64,000 nucleotides of DNA, taken from an uncultured Monoglobus sp. GTDB lineage: Bacteria; Bacillota; Clostridia; Monoglobales; Monoglobaceae. A model generated the notes under the pieces. It was not told where the DNA came from. It did no database searches and saw only the letters and a list, made by a program, of their open reading frames with translations. The position numbers were made by a program, and so were the translations under genes. Below are positions 40,549 through 47,524 of the stretch, piece after piece; within the stretch, counting starts at the first letter, position 1, and each line of letters opens with the position of its first letter. The stretch covers positions 1-64,000 of the forward strand of contig CANQMT010000010.1 of the NCBI GenBank assembly GCA_947625055.1. Direction: 5' to 3'.

Positions 40549-40577
40549 TTGACAAATATCATTAAATGGTATATAAT
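40549..40577 (+). promoter_or_regulatory. Promoter of the trp operon
   Basis: Perfect consensus TTGACA (40549-40554), 17-base spacer, TATAAT (40572-40577). Start predicted near 40584. Confidence 0.9.
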
Positions 40578-40584
40578 ATTATGA

Positions 40585-40637
40585 CAGTTCAGATTAGACG
40601 AGATTAGGTATTTTGAGATGAGATTAGCTGAGACGAG
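40585..40637 (+). promoter_or_regulatory. TRAP (MtrB) binding site: eleven 5-nt-spaced triplets
   Basis: Triplets begin every five bases from 40585 to 40635: CAG, CAG, UAG, GAG, UAG, AUU, GAG, GAG, UAG, GAG, GAG. Eight are (G/U)AG and all eight keep exact 2-nt spacing in one register. The trp RNA-binding attenuation protein is an 11-subunit ring that binds eleven (G/U)AG triplets with 2-3 nt spacers in Bacillus trp leaders. The site starts at the predicted transcription start. mtrB itself is not in the window. Confidence 0.8.
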
Positions 40638-40643
40638 TGGGCT

Positions 40644-40728
40644 GAAATAGCGCCCGATCAACGAGCGGGAAACGAACGGCTCTTGCGCCGCACCGTATGT
40701 GCTGCGCGCTGCGTTCCCGAGCGCTTTT
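40644..40728 (+). terminator. Candidate trp attenuator hairpin
   Basis: After the TRAP site, CGGGAA-CG pairs with CGTTCCCG and an inner GCGC-GCAC with GTGC-GCGC, forming a GC-rich hairpin ended by GCGCTTTTAA (T's at 40725-40728). The T tract is short. GGGC just after the last triplet can pair with GCCC (about 40638-40655), which could form a competing structure. TRAP-controlled termination is inferred from the arrangement. No T-box motif was seen. Confidence 0.5.
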
Positions 40729-40784
40729 AATGATTCTGAATACTTAGTTGGTCTACTCTAATATATTACGAGGAGGCTTTTTTA

Positions 40785-42257
40785 ATGTTTTATCCAACTT
40801 TTGAGCAGGTCGAAGGCTATGCCGAGGAAGGCTATAACCTGATACCTGTCACGCTGTCGGTTTTCGCGGATATGGACACGCCGATCTCGGCTTTCCGAAA
40901 GCTCGAGACCGACAAATACTGTTTTTTGCTTGAGTCGGTAGAGGGCAGCGAGCTTACAAACCGATACTCGTTTATCGGTCGAAATCCGTTCCTCACGTTC
41001 AAGAGCTACGGCGGCAGGGCGGTCATCACCGATTATAACGGCGTTGTGACCGAGCGCGAGGGGAACCCGATCGACATCTTAAACGAATACGCCGACAAAT
41101 TTAAATCCCCGGTCATCGAGGGGCTGCCGTCGTTCAGCGGCGGCGCGGTGGGATGCTTCGCCTATGATCTGGTGCGCCTGACCGAAAAGCTGCCCGAACC
41201 GCCCGAGGACGATCTCAACCAGCCCGACATGCACTTTATGTTCACCGATGAGATCGTGGCTTTTGACAACAAGGCAAAGAAGATCATAATCATGGTGAAC
41301 ATCCACCCCGGCGAAAATCTGCGGTTCAGATACGACCGCGCGGTCGAGCGGCTGATCGAGATCAAGAACGAGCTGGCCGCGCCTCTTGAGCTCAAGTCAA
41401 AGCCCGGCAGCGGATTCAGAGGCTCGGGCGAACCCAAGAGCAACATAACCAAAGAGCGGTTCTGCGAGAACGTGGAGAAGGCGAAGGAATATATCAAAAA
41501 CGGCGATATATTTCAGGTGGTGCTGTCGCAGAGATTCGAGATCGAGAACTACAGCGACCCGTTCAACGCCTACCGCGCGATACGCGTCATAAACCCGTCG
41601 CCGTATATGTATTACTTGAAATTCGATAGCTGCCAGATCGCGGGCGCGTCGCCCGAGATGCTGGTGCGCGTTGAGGACGGGATCGTGTCGAACAGCCCGA
41701 TAGCGGGCAGCCGCCCGAGAGGAAAGACGGCTGAGGAGGATAGGCAGAACGAGTTCGATCTGATCGCCGACCCGAAGGAGAACGCCGAGCACATCATGCT
41801 TGTCGATCTGGGCAGAAACGACGTCGGCAAGGTCTGCGAGTTCGGCAGCGTCGAGGTCACGCGTCTCAAGTATATCCAAAGATTTTCCCACATAATGCAC
41901 ATGACGTCCGACGTGCAGGGCAGGCTGAGATCCGACAAGACCGCGTTCGACGCGCTGCGCGCGGTGCTTCCCGCGGGAACGCTGTCGGGCGCGCCCAAGA
42001 TACGCGCAATGGAGATCATTGACGAGCTCGAGACCCGAAAGCGCGGCTTCTACGGCGGAGCGATCGGCTATATCGGCTTCGGAGGCAGCCTCGATTCCTG
42101 CATAACGATCAGGACGGCGCTGTTTAAGGACAACAAAGCCTACGTCCAGGCCGGAGCAGGTATCGTCTACGACTCGGTCCCCGAGACCGAGTACACCGAG
42201 ACGGTCAACAAGGCTATGGCGATGATACAGGCGATAGAAAGGGCGGGTGATCTTTGA
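40785..42257 (+). CDS. trpE: Anthranilate synthase component I
   Basis: 490 residues, cytoplasmic. Makes anthranilate from chorismate with ammonia supplied by TrpG; first committed step of tryptophan synthesis. The C-terminal chorismate-binding half includes ENAEHIMLVDLGRNDVGKV, PAGTLSGAPKIRAMEIIDE and YGGAIGYIGFGG. The N-terminal half has the LLESVEGSELTNRYSFIGR pattern that contributes to tryptophan feedback binding in the family. AGGAGG precedes the ATG. First gene of trpEGDCFBA, downstream of a TRAP-type leader; trpG overlaps its stop. Confidence 0.97.
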   Translation: MFYPTFEQVEGYAEEGYNLIPVTLSVFADMDTPISAFRKLETDKYCFLLESVEGSELTNRYSFIGRNPFLTFKSYGGRAVITDYNGVVTEREGNPIDILNEYADKFKSPVIEGLPSFSGGAVGCFAYDLVRLTEKLPEPPEDDLNQPDMHFMFTDEIVAFDNKAKKIIIMVNIHPGENLRFRYDRAVERLIEIKNELAAPLELKSKPGSGFRGSGEPKSNITKERFCENVEKAKEYIKNGDIFQVVLSQRFEIENYSDPFNAYRAIRVINPSPYMYYLKFDSCQIAGASPEMLVRVEDGIVSNSPIAGSRPRGKTAEEDRQNEFDLIADPKENAEHIMLVDLGRNDVGKVCEFGSVEVTRLKYIQRFSHIMHMTSDVQGRLRSDKTAFDALRAVLPAGTLSGAPKIRAMEIIDELETRKRGFYGGAIGYIGFGGSLDSCITIRTALFKDNKAYVQAGAGIVYDSVPETEYTETVNKAMAMIQAIERAGDL

Positions 42258-42829
42258 TGAATATAATTATTGATAACTATGACTCGTTCACCTATAATCT
42301 GTACCAATATATAGGTGAGATCGACCCTAATGTCAAGGTTTACAGAAACGACGAGGTCACGGTCGATGAGCTCGAGGCCATGGAGCCGGAGCATATAATA
42401 ATCTCGCCCGGCCCGAAATACCCAAAAGACGCGGGCATATGCATAGAGCTTATAAAGCGGCTTTATACAAAAATCCCGATCATGGGCGTGTGCCTCGGCC
42501 ACCAGTCTATAGGAGAGGCAATGGGCGGCAGAACGATCCATGCGCCGAAGCTGATGCACGGCAAAGCCGACACCGCGAAGATCCTCGATAAGACCTCGGT
42601 GATATTCGGCGGTATAGTCGGAGACGAGATACGTGTCGGCAGATACCATTCGCTGGTGACAGACGAGAGCGCCCTGCTCGGCTGCATGAAGGTCACGGCC
42701 AAGACCGACGACGGCTCGGTCATGGCTATGGAGCATAGGGAATATCCGCTGTTCGGGCTGCAGTTCCACCCCGAATCGGTGCTGACGCCCGACGGAAAAA
42801 CAATGTTAAAAAATTTTTTAAATATATAG
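42257..42829 (+). CDS. trpG: Anthranilate synthase component II (glutamine amidotransferase)
   Basis: 190 residues. Class I amidotransferase supplying ammonia to TrpE. Starts NIIIDNYDSFTYNLYQY. The nucleophile elbow MGVCLGHQSIGEAMG holds the catalytic cysteine near residue 80; QFHPESVLTPDGK holds His and Glu near residue 170. Its ATG shares a base with the trpE stop (TGATG), so translation is coupled. In Bacillus subtilis trpG is in the folate operon; here it is inside the trp operon. Confidence 0.96.
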   Translation: MNIIIDNYDSFTYNLYQYIGEIDPNVKVYRNDEVTVDELEAMEPEHIIISPGPKYPKDAGICIELIKRLYTKIPIMGVCLGHQSIGEAMGGRTIHAPKLMHGKADTAKILDKTSVIFGGIVGDEIRVGRYHSLVTDESALLGCMKVTAKTDDGSVMAMEHREYPLFGLQFHPESVLTPDGKTMLKNFLNI

Positions 42830-42841
42830 GAGTTGAAAATT

Positions 42842-43858
42842 ATGCTTACACAATACATAAGAAAGATCACTGACGGAGAAAACCTGACGTTTGACGAGGC
42901 GAAAACCGCAATGGACGCGGTTTTGGACGGCGGAGCGACGCCGGTGCAGATAAGCGCCTACCTCACCGCCCTGCGCATGAAGGGCGAGACGATCGACGAG
43001 ATCAGCGGCAGCGCCGCGATGATGAACAGCAAGGCCTCGCTCATCACGCCCGACGTTCCCGACTATGTTGACTGCGTGGGAACCGGCGGCGACGGCACGA
43101 ACACGTTTAACATTTCTACCACCGCGGCGTTTGTTATCGCGGGCGCGGGCGCAAAGACCGCCAAGCACGGAAACCGCGCGGTTTCGAGCAAATGCGGCAG
43201 CGCCGACGTGCTTGAGGGCCTCGGCGTAAATATCATGATAACGCCCGAGCAGGTCAAGGAGTGCGTCGAAAAGATCGGCATAGGATTTATGTTCGCGAGA
43301 ACCATGCACCCCTGCATGAAAACCGTGTCGGGCGTGCGCGGCGAGATCAAGATAAGAACTCTGTTTAATATATTAGGCCCCCTCTCGAACCCCTCGAACG
43401 CCAAGCATCAGGTCATCGGCGTGTTTGACGAGAACCTGACCCACCCGCTGGCCGAGGCGATGATGAACCTCGGCGTAACCTCGGGCATGTCGGTATGCGG
43501 CGTTGACAACGGCATGGATGAGCTGTCGATAATCGGAAAGACCAAGATATCCGAGATAAAGGACGGCAAGGTCATCGACTATTATTTAAGCCCCGAGGAT
43601 GTGGGCCTCGCCGTCGGCACGGCGGATGACATCAAGGGCGGAGACGTAGACGAGAACGTGAAAACAACCCTGAGCATCTTAAAAGGCGAAAAAGGTCCCC
43701 GCCGCGATATAGTTGTTCTGAACGCGGGTGCGGCGATATATACGACAGGCATTGCGAAGAGCATCGAGGAAGGCGTTCGCATGGCGGAAAAAGCCATAGA
43801 CAGCGGCGCCGCCATGGAAAAACTCGATCAACTGGTAGAGATGACGAACGCGTTTTAG
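42842..43858 (+). CDS. trpD: Anthranilate phosphoribosyltransferase
   Basis: 338 residues. Transfers phosphoribose from PRPP to anthranilate. Glycine-rich PRPP loop VGTGGDGTNTFNIST near residue 78, then KHGNRAVSSKCGSADVLE near residue 105. GGAG precedes the ATG at 42842; a TTG three codons earlier is less likely. It starts 13 bases after trpG ends. An R2 repeat insertion separates it from trpC. Confidence 0.96.
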   Translation: MLTQYIRKITDGENLTFDEAKTAMDAVLDGGATPVQISAYLTALRMKGETIDEISGSAAMMNSKASLITPDVPDYVDCVGTGGDGTNTFNISTTAAFVIAGAGAKTAKHGNRAVSSKCGSADVLEGLGVNIMITPEQVKECVEKIGIGFMFARTMHPCMKTVSGVRGEIKIRTLFNILGPLSNPSNAKHQVIGVFDENLTHPLAEAMMNLGVTSGMSVCGVDNGMDELSIIGKTKISEIKDGKVIDYYLSPEDVGLAVGTADDIKGGDVDENVKTTLSILKGEKGPRRDIVVLNAGAAIYTTGIAKSIEEGVRMAEKAIDSGAAMEKLDQLVEMTNAF

Positions 43859-43861
43859 TTT

Positions 43862-44059
43862 GGCTCGCCCCTTTAGGGGAGAGCTGGCTGCGGCTTGTCC
43901 GCAGACTGAGAGGGGTCAACGTAGAGACTAGGAAATAGGTGCTAGGAACTAGGAATATCTCGCTGAGATTTTCAATCATAGCCCCTAGACCTTAATCTCT
44001 GGTACCTATGTTAACCCCTCTCCGCCCGCTAGCGGGCACCTCTCCCCAAGGGGCGAGGC
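43862..44059. repeat. R2 MITE-like element between trpD and trpC
   Basis: 198 bp with ~20-bp inverted ends: GGCTCGCCCCTTTAGGGGAG at 43862 and CTCCCCAAGGGGCGAGGC ending at 44059. It contains the GACTGAGAGGGG and CCTCTCC(GC) segments seen in R2 copies at 21377 and 49160, plus TAGGNACTAGGAA tandem pieces in the middle. No gene. It interrupts an otherwise tight operon. Confidence 0.75.
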
Positions 44060-44087
44060 AGACATAAGTCAATGAGAGGAAATATCC

Positions 44088-44891
44088 ATGGACATACTTG
44101 AAAAAATCGTAACAAAAAAGAAAATATATCTTGAGAACCAAAAGCAGAAAATCAGCTACAAAACGCTGAGGACTGACGTTGAAAAATCGTTCGGCTCGCG
44201 CAAGGTGATAAGCTTTTACAACGCGCTTAAAAACTATGAAAAAATTTCGATCATAGCCGAAGTGAAAAAAGCGTCGCCCTCAAAAGGGCTGATCCGCCCC
44301 GACCTTAACCACATGGACGTGGCGCGGGAATATTTAAAGTCCGACGTGCAGGCCATGTCGGTGCTGACCGAGACCGACTTCTTCCTCGGCAAGCCCGATT
44401 TCCTGCGCGACATCAGCCGCATTTCCCAAATTCCGCTGCTGCGCAAGGATTTCGTGATCGACGACTATCAGATATACGAGGCGAGAGGCCTCGGCGCGTC
44501 GGCGATCCTGCTTATCGCGGCGATCCTTGACGACAAGACCATGAGCGATTTTATGGACACCGCGCGCGGGCTCAATCTTGACTGTCTGGTCGAGGTTCAC
44601 GACGCGGAGGAGCTGCGCCGCGTGAACGCGCTTGGCGCGAGGATCGTCGGGGTCAACAACCGCAACCTCAAGACCTTTGAGGAGGACCTCGGCACCACCG
44701 AGCGGCTTTTGGGTCTGCTTGAGGAGCGGGAGAAAAAGGTTCTTGTGTCCGAAAGCGGGATCAGGAGCAGCCGCGACCTTGAGTATGTGGAGCGGATTGG
44801 CGCAGACGCGGCGCTTATCGGCGAGCTGTTCATGCGTCACCAGAATATTTCCTCCGCGGTCGATGATCTGAGAAACGGAAGGCTTGATTGA
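44088..44891 (+). CDS. trpC: Indole-3-glycerol phosphate synthase
   Basis: 267 residues, (beta/alpha)8 barrel. Closes carboxyphenylamino-deoxyribulose phosphate to indole-glycerol phosphate. IIAEVKKASPSKGLI near residue 52 holds catalytic Glu and Lys; LLRKDFVIDDYQIYEARG near 118, VGVNNRNLKTFEEDL near 188 and VSESGIRSSRDLEY near 218 are all family motifs. GAGAGGAAAT precedes the ATG. Its stop is one base before the trpF ATG. Confidence 0.97.
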   Translation: MDILEKIVTKKKIYLENQKQKISYKTLRTDVEKSFGSRKVISFYNALKNYEKISIIAEVKKASPSKGLIRPDLNHMDVAREYLKSDVQAMSVLTETDFFLGKPDFLRDISRISQIPLLRKDFVIDDYQIYEARGLGASAILLIAAILDDKTMSDFMDTARGLNLDCLVEVHDAEELRRVNALGARIVGVNNRNLKTFEEDLGTTERLLGLLEEREKKVLVSESGIRSSRDLEYVERIGADAALIGELFMRHQNISSAVDDLRNGRLD

Positions 44892-44892
44892 T

Positions 44893-45519
44893 ATGAGCGT
44901 TAAAATAAAGATATGCGGCCTCATGCGCGAGGCGGACGCCGACGCGGTGAATGTTGCTATGCCCGACTTTGCGGGCTTTGTGTTCTACGAGAAAAGCCGC
45001 CGCTGTCTGACGGCCGAAAAGGCGCGTGCGATACGCTCGCGGCTCGATCCGAGGATAAGGGCCGTCGGCGTGTTTGTCAACATGCCGCTCCAAAAGATCG
45101 CGGAGCTTGCGGATTCGGTGCCGCTTGACATCGCTCAGCTTCACGGCGAGGAAAGCGCGGAGGATATTGAAGATCTGCGAAAGCTTTGTCCCGATCTCGA
45201 GATCTGGAAGGCGGCGCGGGTCGGCGACGATTTTGACCCGAAAAGCCTTGAAAAATACAAAATCGCCGACCGCTTGCTGCTCGACGCGTATGTCGAGGGT
45301 TACGGCGGCAAGGGCAAAAAGATCGAGGACGAGCGACTGCGCGGCATCGACCTGAGCGCGATCATGCTGGCCGGCGGGCTGAACGCGGACAACATAGCGG
45401 ACGCGGTCGAAAGGTACCGCCCCTACGGGGTCGACGTCAGCAGCGGCGCCGAGACCGACGGTCTGAAGGATGCGGAAAAGATAAAGAAAATCGTGAATAT
45501 CATAAGGAGTATAAAATAA
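44893..45519 (+). CDS. trpF: Phosphoribosylanthranilate isomerase
   Basis: 208 residues, small barrel. Amadori isomerisation of phosphoribosylanthranilate. The family signature KIKICGLMREADADAV lies at the N-terminus with the catalytic cysteine, and LAGGLNADNIADAVE and GVDVSSGAET near the C-terminus bind phosphate and product. The ATG at 44893 directly follows the trpC stop. Confidence 0.95.
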   Translation: MSVKIKICGLMREADADAVNVAMPDFAGFVFYEKSRRCLTAEKARAIRSRLDPRIRAVGVFVNMPLQKIAELADSVPLDIAQLHGEESAEDIEDLRKLCPDLEIWKAARVGDDFDPKSLEKYKIADRLLLDAYVEGYGGKGKKIEDERLRGIDLSAIMLAGGLNADNIADAVERYRPYGVDVSSGAETDGLKDAEKIKKIVNIIRSIK

Positions 45520-45540
45520 ATCAAAACGAGGTATAAAAAT

Positions 45541-46737
45541 ATGGAAAATAAATCAAAGGGCAGATTCGGGATCTACGGCGGACAGTACGCGCCCGAGACC
45601 CTGATGCGCGCCCTGAACGAGCTTGAGGCCGCCTATAACGAGGCGAAGGCGGATCCCGAGTTCCAAAAAGAACTTGAATTTTATTTGAATGAATACGCGA
45701 ACCGCCCGTCTCTGCTTTACTACGCGGAGAACATGACAAAGGATCTGGGCGGCGCCAAGGTGTACATAAAGCGCGAGGATCTGAACCACACCGGAGCGCA
45801 CAAGATAAACAACGTGCTTGGTCAGGCGCTTCTGGCGAAGCGCATGGGCAAAAAGAAGGTGATCGCCGAGACCGGAGCGGGTCAGCACGGAGTGGCCGCG
45901 GCCACGGCGGCAGCGCTGTTCGGCATGGAGTGTGAGGTTTTCATGGGCGAGGAGGACACGCGCCGTCAGGAGCTCAACGTGTTTCGCATGAACCTGCTGG
46001 GCGCCAAAGTTACGCCGGTCACGTCCGGAACCGGCACGCTCAAGGACGCCTGCAACGAGGCGCTCCGCGCGTGGGCGGCAAGGGCTAACGACACGATGTA
46101 TCTGCTGGGCTCCACCATGGGCCCGCACCCGTACCCAACGATCGTGCGCGACTTCCAGAGCGTTATCGGAAAAGAGATTAAGGCGCAGATGCTCGAAAAA
46201 GAGGGCCGTCTGCCCGACGCGGTCATCGCCTGCGTGGGCGGAGGCAGTAATGCAATGGGCGCGTTTTATGACTTTATCGGCGACAAGTCGGTTCGGCTTA
46301 TCGGAGCCGAGGCCGCGGGCGACGGAATAGACACCGAGCGCCACGCCGCGACCATGACGAAGGGCACCGTGGGTGTGCTGCACGGCATGAAGTCGATATT
46401 TTTGCAGGACAAATCGGGCGGCATAATGCCGGTCTACTCGATCTCCGCGGGCCTTGATTATCCCGGAGTCGGCCCCGAACATGCGGCTCTGCGCGACAGC
46501 GGCAGAGCCGAATACTATCCGATAACCGACGCCGAGGCGGTCGACGCGTTCCGCTATCTGACGAGGATCGAGGGCATAATCCCCGCGATCGAAAGCTCAC
46601 ACGCGGTGGCGCAGGCGATGAAGCTCGTGCCGAAAATGGACAAGGACAAAATCGTTGTCATAAACCTCTCGGGCAGAGGCGACAAGGACGTTTACTCCGT
46701 CGCGAGATATATGGGGGTGGAAATCAATGAAAAATAG
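45541..46737 (+). CDS. trpB: Tryptophan synthase beta subunit
   Basis: 398 residues, PLP enzyme joining indole and serine. It begins [36 protein letters not shown] near residue 82 holds the PLP lysine; [11 protein letters not shown], and [12 protein letters not shown] for phosphate binding, follow. Trp synthase type 1 by length and motifs. ACGAGG is in front of the ATG; the 3' end overlaps trpA. Confidence 0.97.
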
Positions 46738-47524
46738 AATAGACTCAATGTTTGAAGCCCTGAGAGAAAAAAACAAAAAAGCGCTTGTGACGTTCCTGAC
46801 GTTCGGCGACCCGGATATCGAGACCTCGAAAAAGCTGGTGCTCGCCATGGAAAACGCGGGCGCCGATCTGATCGAACTGGGAATACCGTTCTCCGACCCT
46901 ATGGCCGAGGGCCCGGTAATTCAGGCGGCGAACGTGCGCGCCCTGAAGCATGAGATAAATCTTGACATAATATTTAAGGCTGTGTCCGAGCTGCGCGAGA
47001 GCACGCAGGTGCCGCTGGTGTTTTTGATGTATTTCAACTCGATATTAAGCTACGGCCCCGAAAAGTTTTTCGCGGCCTGCAAAAAGGCGGGCGTGGACGG
47101 CGTTATTATCCCCGACCTTCCGTTTGAGGAGAGCGATGAGATATATGATCTGACGCAGGAGTACGGCGTATGGCAGATCTCGATGATCGCGCCAACCTCA
47201 TCCGAGGAGCGTTCAAAGGCGATCTGCGATAGGGCAAAGGGCTTTCTCTACTGTGTGTCCTCAATGGGCGTCACCGGAACGCGCGAGGATTTTTCGACCG
47301 ACTTTGACCGTATGTTCGGCATGCTCAACAAGTATTCCGACATTCCCAAGTGCATAGGCTTCGGAATTTCAAAACCCGAGCATATCGAGAGTTTGAAAAA
47401 ATACTGCGACGGCCTTATAGTCGGCAGCGCCATTGTCAAAACGATCGCCGCGGGCAAGACTGCGGAGGATAAGATAAACGGCGTGAAGGCCCTGACAAGC
47501 GCCCTCAAAGCTCCGCTGATGTAA
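46727..47524 (+). CDS. trpA: Tryptophan synthase alpha subunit
   Basis: 265 residues, (beta/alpha)8 barrel. Cleaves indole-glycerol phosphate to indole, which is channelled to Trp[13 protein letters not shown] near residue 20, [19 protein letters not shown] near residue 50 with the catalytic Glu and Asp, and [10 protein letters not shown] near 180. It overlaps the end of trpB by 11 bases. Last gene of the trp operon; an R3 repeat and a terminator follow. Confidence 0.97.

Follow-up and report, generated by a model that had tools for sequence, protein, structure and literature searches.

In the window, that is, the whole 64 kb stretch of DNA analysed here, the region 5' of trpE is probably the leader of a TRAP-controlled trpEGDCFBA operon, which would act by refolding among a triplet array, a 3' element and the Shine-Dalgarno (SD) sequence. 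TRAP is very probably the regulator of this leader, and tryptophan would be its signal. Sequence comparison established an mtrB gene, the triplets, a conserved complementarity and a conserved anti-SD hairpin, and it showed that no terminator is conserved. We infer that TRAP binds to this RNA and acts chiefly on translation. The preliminary description of this DNA, made from the letters alone, had named the right regulator. It had also placed transcription attenuation at a GC-rich hairpin. Since Monoglobus has a conserved SD-sequestering switch and no conserved intrinsic terminator, that mechanism has to be redrawn as an SD switch.

The trp leader and its triplets

The features of the leader and of the operon are listed in Table 1. 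The full trpEGDCFBA operon lies 3' of the leader (40785-47524). Given the position of the promoter, the triplet run opens near the expected +1.

Table 1. Coordinates of the leader and operon features in the window.
Feature	Position	Strand	Basis
Sigma-70-type promoter, perfect TTGACA-17-TATAAT	40549..40577	+	12/12 consensus
TRAP-type binding site (predicted), CAG CAG TAG GAG TAG / GAG GAG TAG GAG GAG, two blocks	40585..40637	+	sequence, sister-leader conservation
GUAUU interruption between the triplet blocks (AUU position of the preliminary description)	40608..40614	+	invariant in nine aligned Monoglobus leaders, gap length variable
Small hairpin UGGGC-(UGAAAUAGC)-GCCCG	40638..40656	+	directly 3' of triplets; conserved across Monoglobus
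Variable GC-rich segment ('hairpin with T run' of the preliminary description)	40657..40729	+	weak terminator-like tail TTTTAATG
3' element AATACTTAGTTGGTCTACTCT	40739..40759	+	complementary to 40591-40612; overlaps anti-SD strand; MFE, RNAalifold, pair counts
Anti-SD/SD hairpin GGUCUACUC ... GAGGAGGCU, proposed OFF state	40750..40778	+	forms with triplets masked in silico
SD GAGGAGG of trpE	40770..40776	+	sequence
trpE, anthranilate synthase component I	40785..42257	+	PF00425 E=3.1e-92, PF04715 E=7e-40
trpG	42254..42829	+	TIGR00566 above cut-off
trpD	42833..43858	+	PF00591, PF02885
trpC	44088..44891	+	PF00218
trpF	44884..45519	+	phosphoribosylanthranilate isomerase models, E=3.5e-52
trpB	45541..46737	+	PF00291 + operon position
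trpA	46727..47524	+	PF00290

Eleven positions with a 5-nt period (40585, 40590 ... 40635) read CAG CAG TAG GAG TAG ATT GAG GAG TAG GAG GAG. These are ten NAG triplets, eight of them (G/T)AG and two CAG, plus ATT, and the letters match the preliminary description exactly. TRAP sites hold 9-11 NAG triplets (PMC4347634), and the array has ten with one 7-nt interruption. Alignment of the sister trp leaders showed that the triplets are kept, whereas the 5-nt register across the middle is not. In the Monoglobus species, two triplet blocks lie 6-9 nt apart, the gap starts with GUAUU, and the eleven-position register is not conserved. Since the ATT of the window sits in this interruption of variable length, the exact register, although true of the window, is partly fortuitous. 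The site is best taken as ten NAG triplets in 5 + 5 blocks.

In the B. subtilis trp leader, a 5' stem-loop stands ahead of the triplets. In contrast, the triplets of the Monoglobus leader run from about +1, and a small conserved hairpin lies 3' of them. One pair of its stem is G-C in 5/9 and A-U in 4/9 leaders, with every cell of the alignment paired, and its loop, UGAAAUAG(U/C), is nearly invariant across Monoglobus. By analogy with the Bacillus 5' stem-loop, the small hairpin possibly contacts TRAP.

Proposed refolding around the Shine-Dalgarno sequence

The proposed switch is as follows. When tryptophan is scarce, TRAP would be unbound, and the triplet region (40591-40612) would pair with the 3' element, which includes the SD-covering strand. 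With the anti-SD strand held by the triplets, the SD would be open and trpE translatable. When tryptophan is plentiful, Trp-loaded TRAP would wrap the triplets and set the 3' element free. The freed GGUCUACUC would then pair with GAGGAGGCU, closing the ribosome-binding site. The triplet array would double as the protein site and the anti-anti-SD strand.

The stretch 40739-40784 is nearly invariant among the Monoglobus leaders. In the MFE fold of the window's leader, the triplet region pairs with 40739-40759, and RNAalifold recovered this helix unprompted from nine Monoglobus leaders. In the consensus, the GUAUU of the interruption pairs with AAUAC at 40739-40743. The helix comprises 19 pairs, which are kept in nearly all of the nine leaders. 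In these leaders, 98-99% of the cells of helices 1 and 2 are paired; sliding the partner by one to three columns brings this down to 20-45%. One two-sided change was found among the 19 pairs, and the support for the long helix comes mostly from conservation rather than covariation. In duplex energy, 0-7 of 300 shuffled 3' regions were as good in 7/10 Monoglobus leaders, and the window's own duplex was only moderately better than its shuffles (30/300 as good). Taken by itself, the anti-SD hairpin does not stand out in stability for a sequence of its composition (80/300 shuffles).

Bound TRAP was mimicked in silico by forbidding pairing in the triplets (masking). In the window's leader, masking raised the pairing of the SD to the upstream strand from 0.05 to 0.71, and an increase was observed in 10/10 Monoglobus leaders. 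With the triplets masked, the predicted fold thus places the SD in the anti-SD hairpin. A free SD without TRAP was not predicted in 5/10 Monoglobus leaders (0.02-0.17), because the SD pairs with the 5' end in the model; in the same five unmasked leaders, the SD nonetheless pairs little with the anti-SD strand. For G014, G002, L051 and L064, the fold barely changed on masking. The anti-SD hairpin recurs in G002, G001, L051 and Acetivibrio-like genomes and includes a C-G to U-A two-sided change; it persists with changed strands, CUC/GAG in Monoglobus and CUU/AAG in G002. In the predicted structures, the triplets compete with an SD-sequestering hairpin, as in a translational switch of the B. subtilis type. 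The SD switch is likely to be the main output, whether or not a minor transcriptional arm accompanies it.

In B. subtilis, TRAP binding makes an SD-sequestering hairpin form at trpE through long-distance refolding (Du and Babitzke 1998, as cited in PMC11255114). The Monoglobus leader resembles the B. subtilis trpEDCFBA leader in having TRAP, a NAG array and an SD that would be accessible as long as TRAP is unbound and shut in a hairpin further downstream once TRAP has bound. However, the B. subtilis leader also has an antiterminator/terminator pair, whereas Monoglobus is without a conserved terminator. At B. subtilis trpG, trpP and ycbK, TRAP sits directly on the ribosome-binding site (PMC11255114). 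The control proposed here would likewise be of translation. Unlike these sites, the Monoglobus site lies ~150 nt upstream of the ribosome-binding site and would act via refolding.

The leader might instead use both arms, as in B. subtilis, with weak or factor-assisted termination in addition to SD sequestration. Acetivibrio-like relatives have a terminator and an anti-SD hairpin together, and general factors could end a long untranslated trp message. We regard this combination as possible yet distinctly less probable than the SD switch, given that Monoglobus has no conserved terminator. The Acetivibrio, Herbivorax and Ruminiclostridium trpE leaders (L063-L069) carry triplets and then an anti-SD hairpin, as here; unlike in Monoglobus, in most of them a hairpin followed by a long T run separates the triplets from the anti-SD hairpin.

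Attenuation alone, with the GC-rich hairpin at ~40660-40724 as the terminator, is improbable. The hairpin described earlier is real, but its standing as a terminator was overstated: its tail is TTTTAATG (TTTTAAT), and it is not conserved. A terminator-like site with the tail TTTTAATGAT was found in the window at 40711-40724, and hairpins trailed by long T runs are present in the TRAP leaders of non-Monoglobus relatives and at further TRAP targets of the family. However, the stretch between the triplets and the SD is the least conserved of the leader in the Monoglobus alignment, and its GC-rich segment varies in sequence as well as length among sister species, some of which lack it. A search of ten Monoglobus leaders found no hairpin with a T run common to the species. 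Four of them (G007, G012, G010 and G011) gave zero terminator candidates, and the remaining Monoglobus gave only weak, unrelated ones. An attenuator of the B. subtilis type, that is, a terminator with an overlapping antiterminator, was not found in the ten leaders, which have no conserved terminator. Since TRAP can bring about termination in B. subtilis even where the attenuator is absent (PMC3913778), a missing terminator does not prove that transcriptional control is missing.

Triplets and mtrB across genomes

TRAP is a textbook regulator that has been studied almost only in Bacillus. Its core holds the tryptophan pocket together with RNA-touching lysines and an arginine. In this genome, the profile search detected a single mtrB (PF02081, E=1.3e-34), flanked by yunB and a pyruvate kinase gene. 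It exceeds the NCBIfam MtrB equivalog cut-off (NF009724, 121.7 bits vs 117). When MtrB was aligned to solved TRAP chains, the core TRG..T.FHH.EKLDKGE..IAQFTE.TSAIK.RG was kept, and the Trp-pocket and RNA-contact residues were retained. The search for anti-TRAP (rtpA), also proposed in the preliminary description, gave no PF15777 match in this genome, in contrast to B. subtilis. The mtrB gene is present in 22/38 genomes of the family Monoglobaceae within the order Monoglobales, in 70/291 of the class Clostridia and in 200/398 sampled genomes of the phylum. Thus, the presence of TRAP is in itself unsurprising, and to call it unusual for gut-type Clostridia was too strong.

Triplet runs were found 5' of trpE in 10/10 Monoglobus leaders. 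Three further genera of Monoglobaceae contributed four genomes, all likewise with triplets at trpE (14/14 leaders together). They also occur in Acetivibrio, Herbivorax, Ruminiclostridium, Thermincola, Fictibacillus, Gorillibacterium and Shimazuella. Both mtrB and the sister triplets, whose joint absence would have told against TRAP in the preliminary description, are therefore present. Among the Trp-gene leaders of Monoglobaceae, the site and mtrB occur together in 20 genomes, the site only in two, mtrB only in one and neither in 11 (Fisher p=3e-6, or p=4e-7 once a doubtful genome is dropped; the genomes are related and non-independent, so that these values overstate the evidence). Both site-only genomes are MAGs, of 79% and 74% completeness. 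The tracking of mtrB by Trp-gene leaders with triplets is supported within the family.

A triplet score was defined as the sum over eleven positions, with 1 for GAG or TAG and 0.4 for AAG or CAG. The window's array scores 8.8. Dinucleotide shuffling of the whole window, repeated 60 times, gave a maximum of 5.4 when the spacers were fixed and of 6.4 when they could be 2-3 nt. The array is far above chance expectation, which bears out the earlier judgement. A chance or structural repeat in which TRAP is uninvolved is thus very improbable: two positions are CAG and one is ATT, and loose triplet patterns do not exceed background across the genome, being no commoner than in the reversed control, but the score far exceeds the shuffles, and the sites precede trp genes across many genomes and follow mtrB. 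Near mtrB itself, no triplets scored above the threshold.

Two variants of the array were observed 5' of trpE. In G002 and G003 (L035 and L036), a hairpin splits the triplets (TGCTTTGCACCGAGTGCAAAGCG in G002). In L052-L062, from a clade of Clostridia that are mostly of the rabbit gut, about five to eight triplets are followed directly by a GTCTTTTTC...GAAAAAGGC terminator, and no anti-SD strand is evident.

Exchange between TRAP and T-boxes

That a Trp T-box or leader peptide controls the window's trpE is scarcely credible, for although a UGG T-box precedes trpE in a sister genus of the same family, the Rfam search of the window gave no T-box (RF00230), and the short leader ORFs (40580-40790) contain no tryptophan codon. 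Together with an mtrB that keeps its contact residues and the conserved triplets, this upholds the earlier choice of TRAP over both.

Within this family, Trp T-box leaders (RF00230) nevertheless precede genes of the very pathway that TRAP controls, in the sister genus and at the TrpB2 gene of this genome. T-boxes sense uncharged tRNA-Trp, whereas TRAP leaders sense free tryptophan via a protein. In the sister genus g9, T-boxes with an apparent UGG specifier stand at trpE (in G036 by motif only), and no mtrB was found in the g9 genomes with trpE that were read. In the genome of the window, a TrpB2-like gene is preceded by a T-box whose specifier appears to be UGG (L210 1501-1724 (-), C1:79338-79561); this T-box scores 60 bits, below the Rfam gathering cut-off of 93 (E=2.9e-11). 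The same genome thus appears to pair TRAP at trpE with a Trp T-box at TrpB2.

In Monoglobaceae without trpE, triplets stand before a lone trpB (G023, G024, G028, G029 and G032) or before a TrpB2-type gene (G018, G020 and G004). In G019, G021 and G031, a T-box takes the place of the triplets there, and mtrB is absent. Four TrpB2 or lone trpB leaders were fully read (L153, L154, L155 and L157, about 1490-1640), and each has triplets and then a hairpin with a T run. Their sequences suggest TRAP-controlled indole salvage. The two systems therefore swap places: trpE has TRAP in Monoglobus and a T-box in the sister genus, whereas TrpB2 has a T-box here and TRAP with a terminator elsewhere.

Putting these readings together, we lean towards a translation-only TRAP switch in Monoglobus, in which the triplets would serve as the anti-anti-SD strand, without a terminator, a 5' stem-loop or anti-TRAP, and towards a repeated replacement between TRAP and T-box at trpE, lone trpB and TrpB2. 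In one cell, synthesis would then follow the level of free tryptophan, and indole salvage the charging of tRNA. The new elements are the reduced, terminator-free architecture and the exchange with T-boxes; the presence of TRAP is not new. No description of TRAP in Monoglobus was found in the open-access literature, a set thin in subscription journals with older trp-regulation surveys. With TRAP now in gut Clostridia, its output is likely to depend on the gene, being translation at Monoglobus trpE and termination at the lone trpB or TrpB2 of the sister genera. The exchange on orthologous genes offers a natural test of sensing free tryptophan versus charged tRNA.

Transporter and membrane genes gave further observations. 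No TrpX was found in the genome of the window, and the TrpX-type transporter genes of Monoglobus are without triplets, G014 excepted. There, TRAP-type triplets and a terminator lie before a TrpX-like ABC substrate-binding gene (L181 1490-1629). At a YczE-like membrane gene (L123 1497-1530; C15:4579 in the genome of the window), six NAG triplets span the SD and the start codon. This run, which overlaps the SD and the coding sequence, was the one further candidate from a pattern search for TRAP targets in the genome of the window. It also occurs in G007 and G012, and either direct binding of TRAP or chance may account for it.
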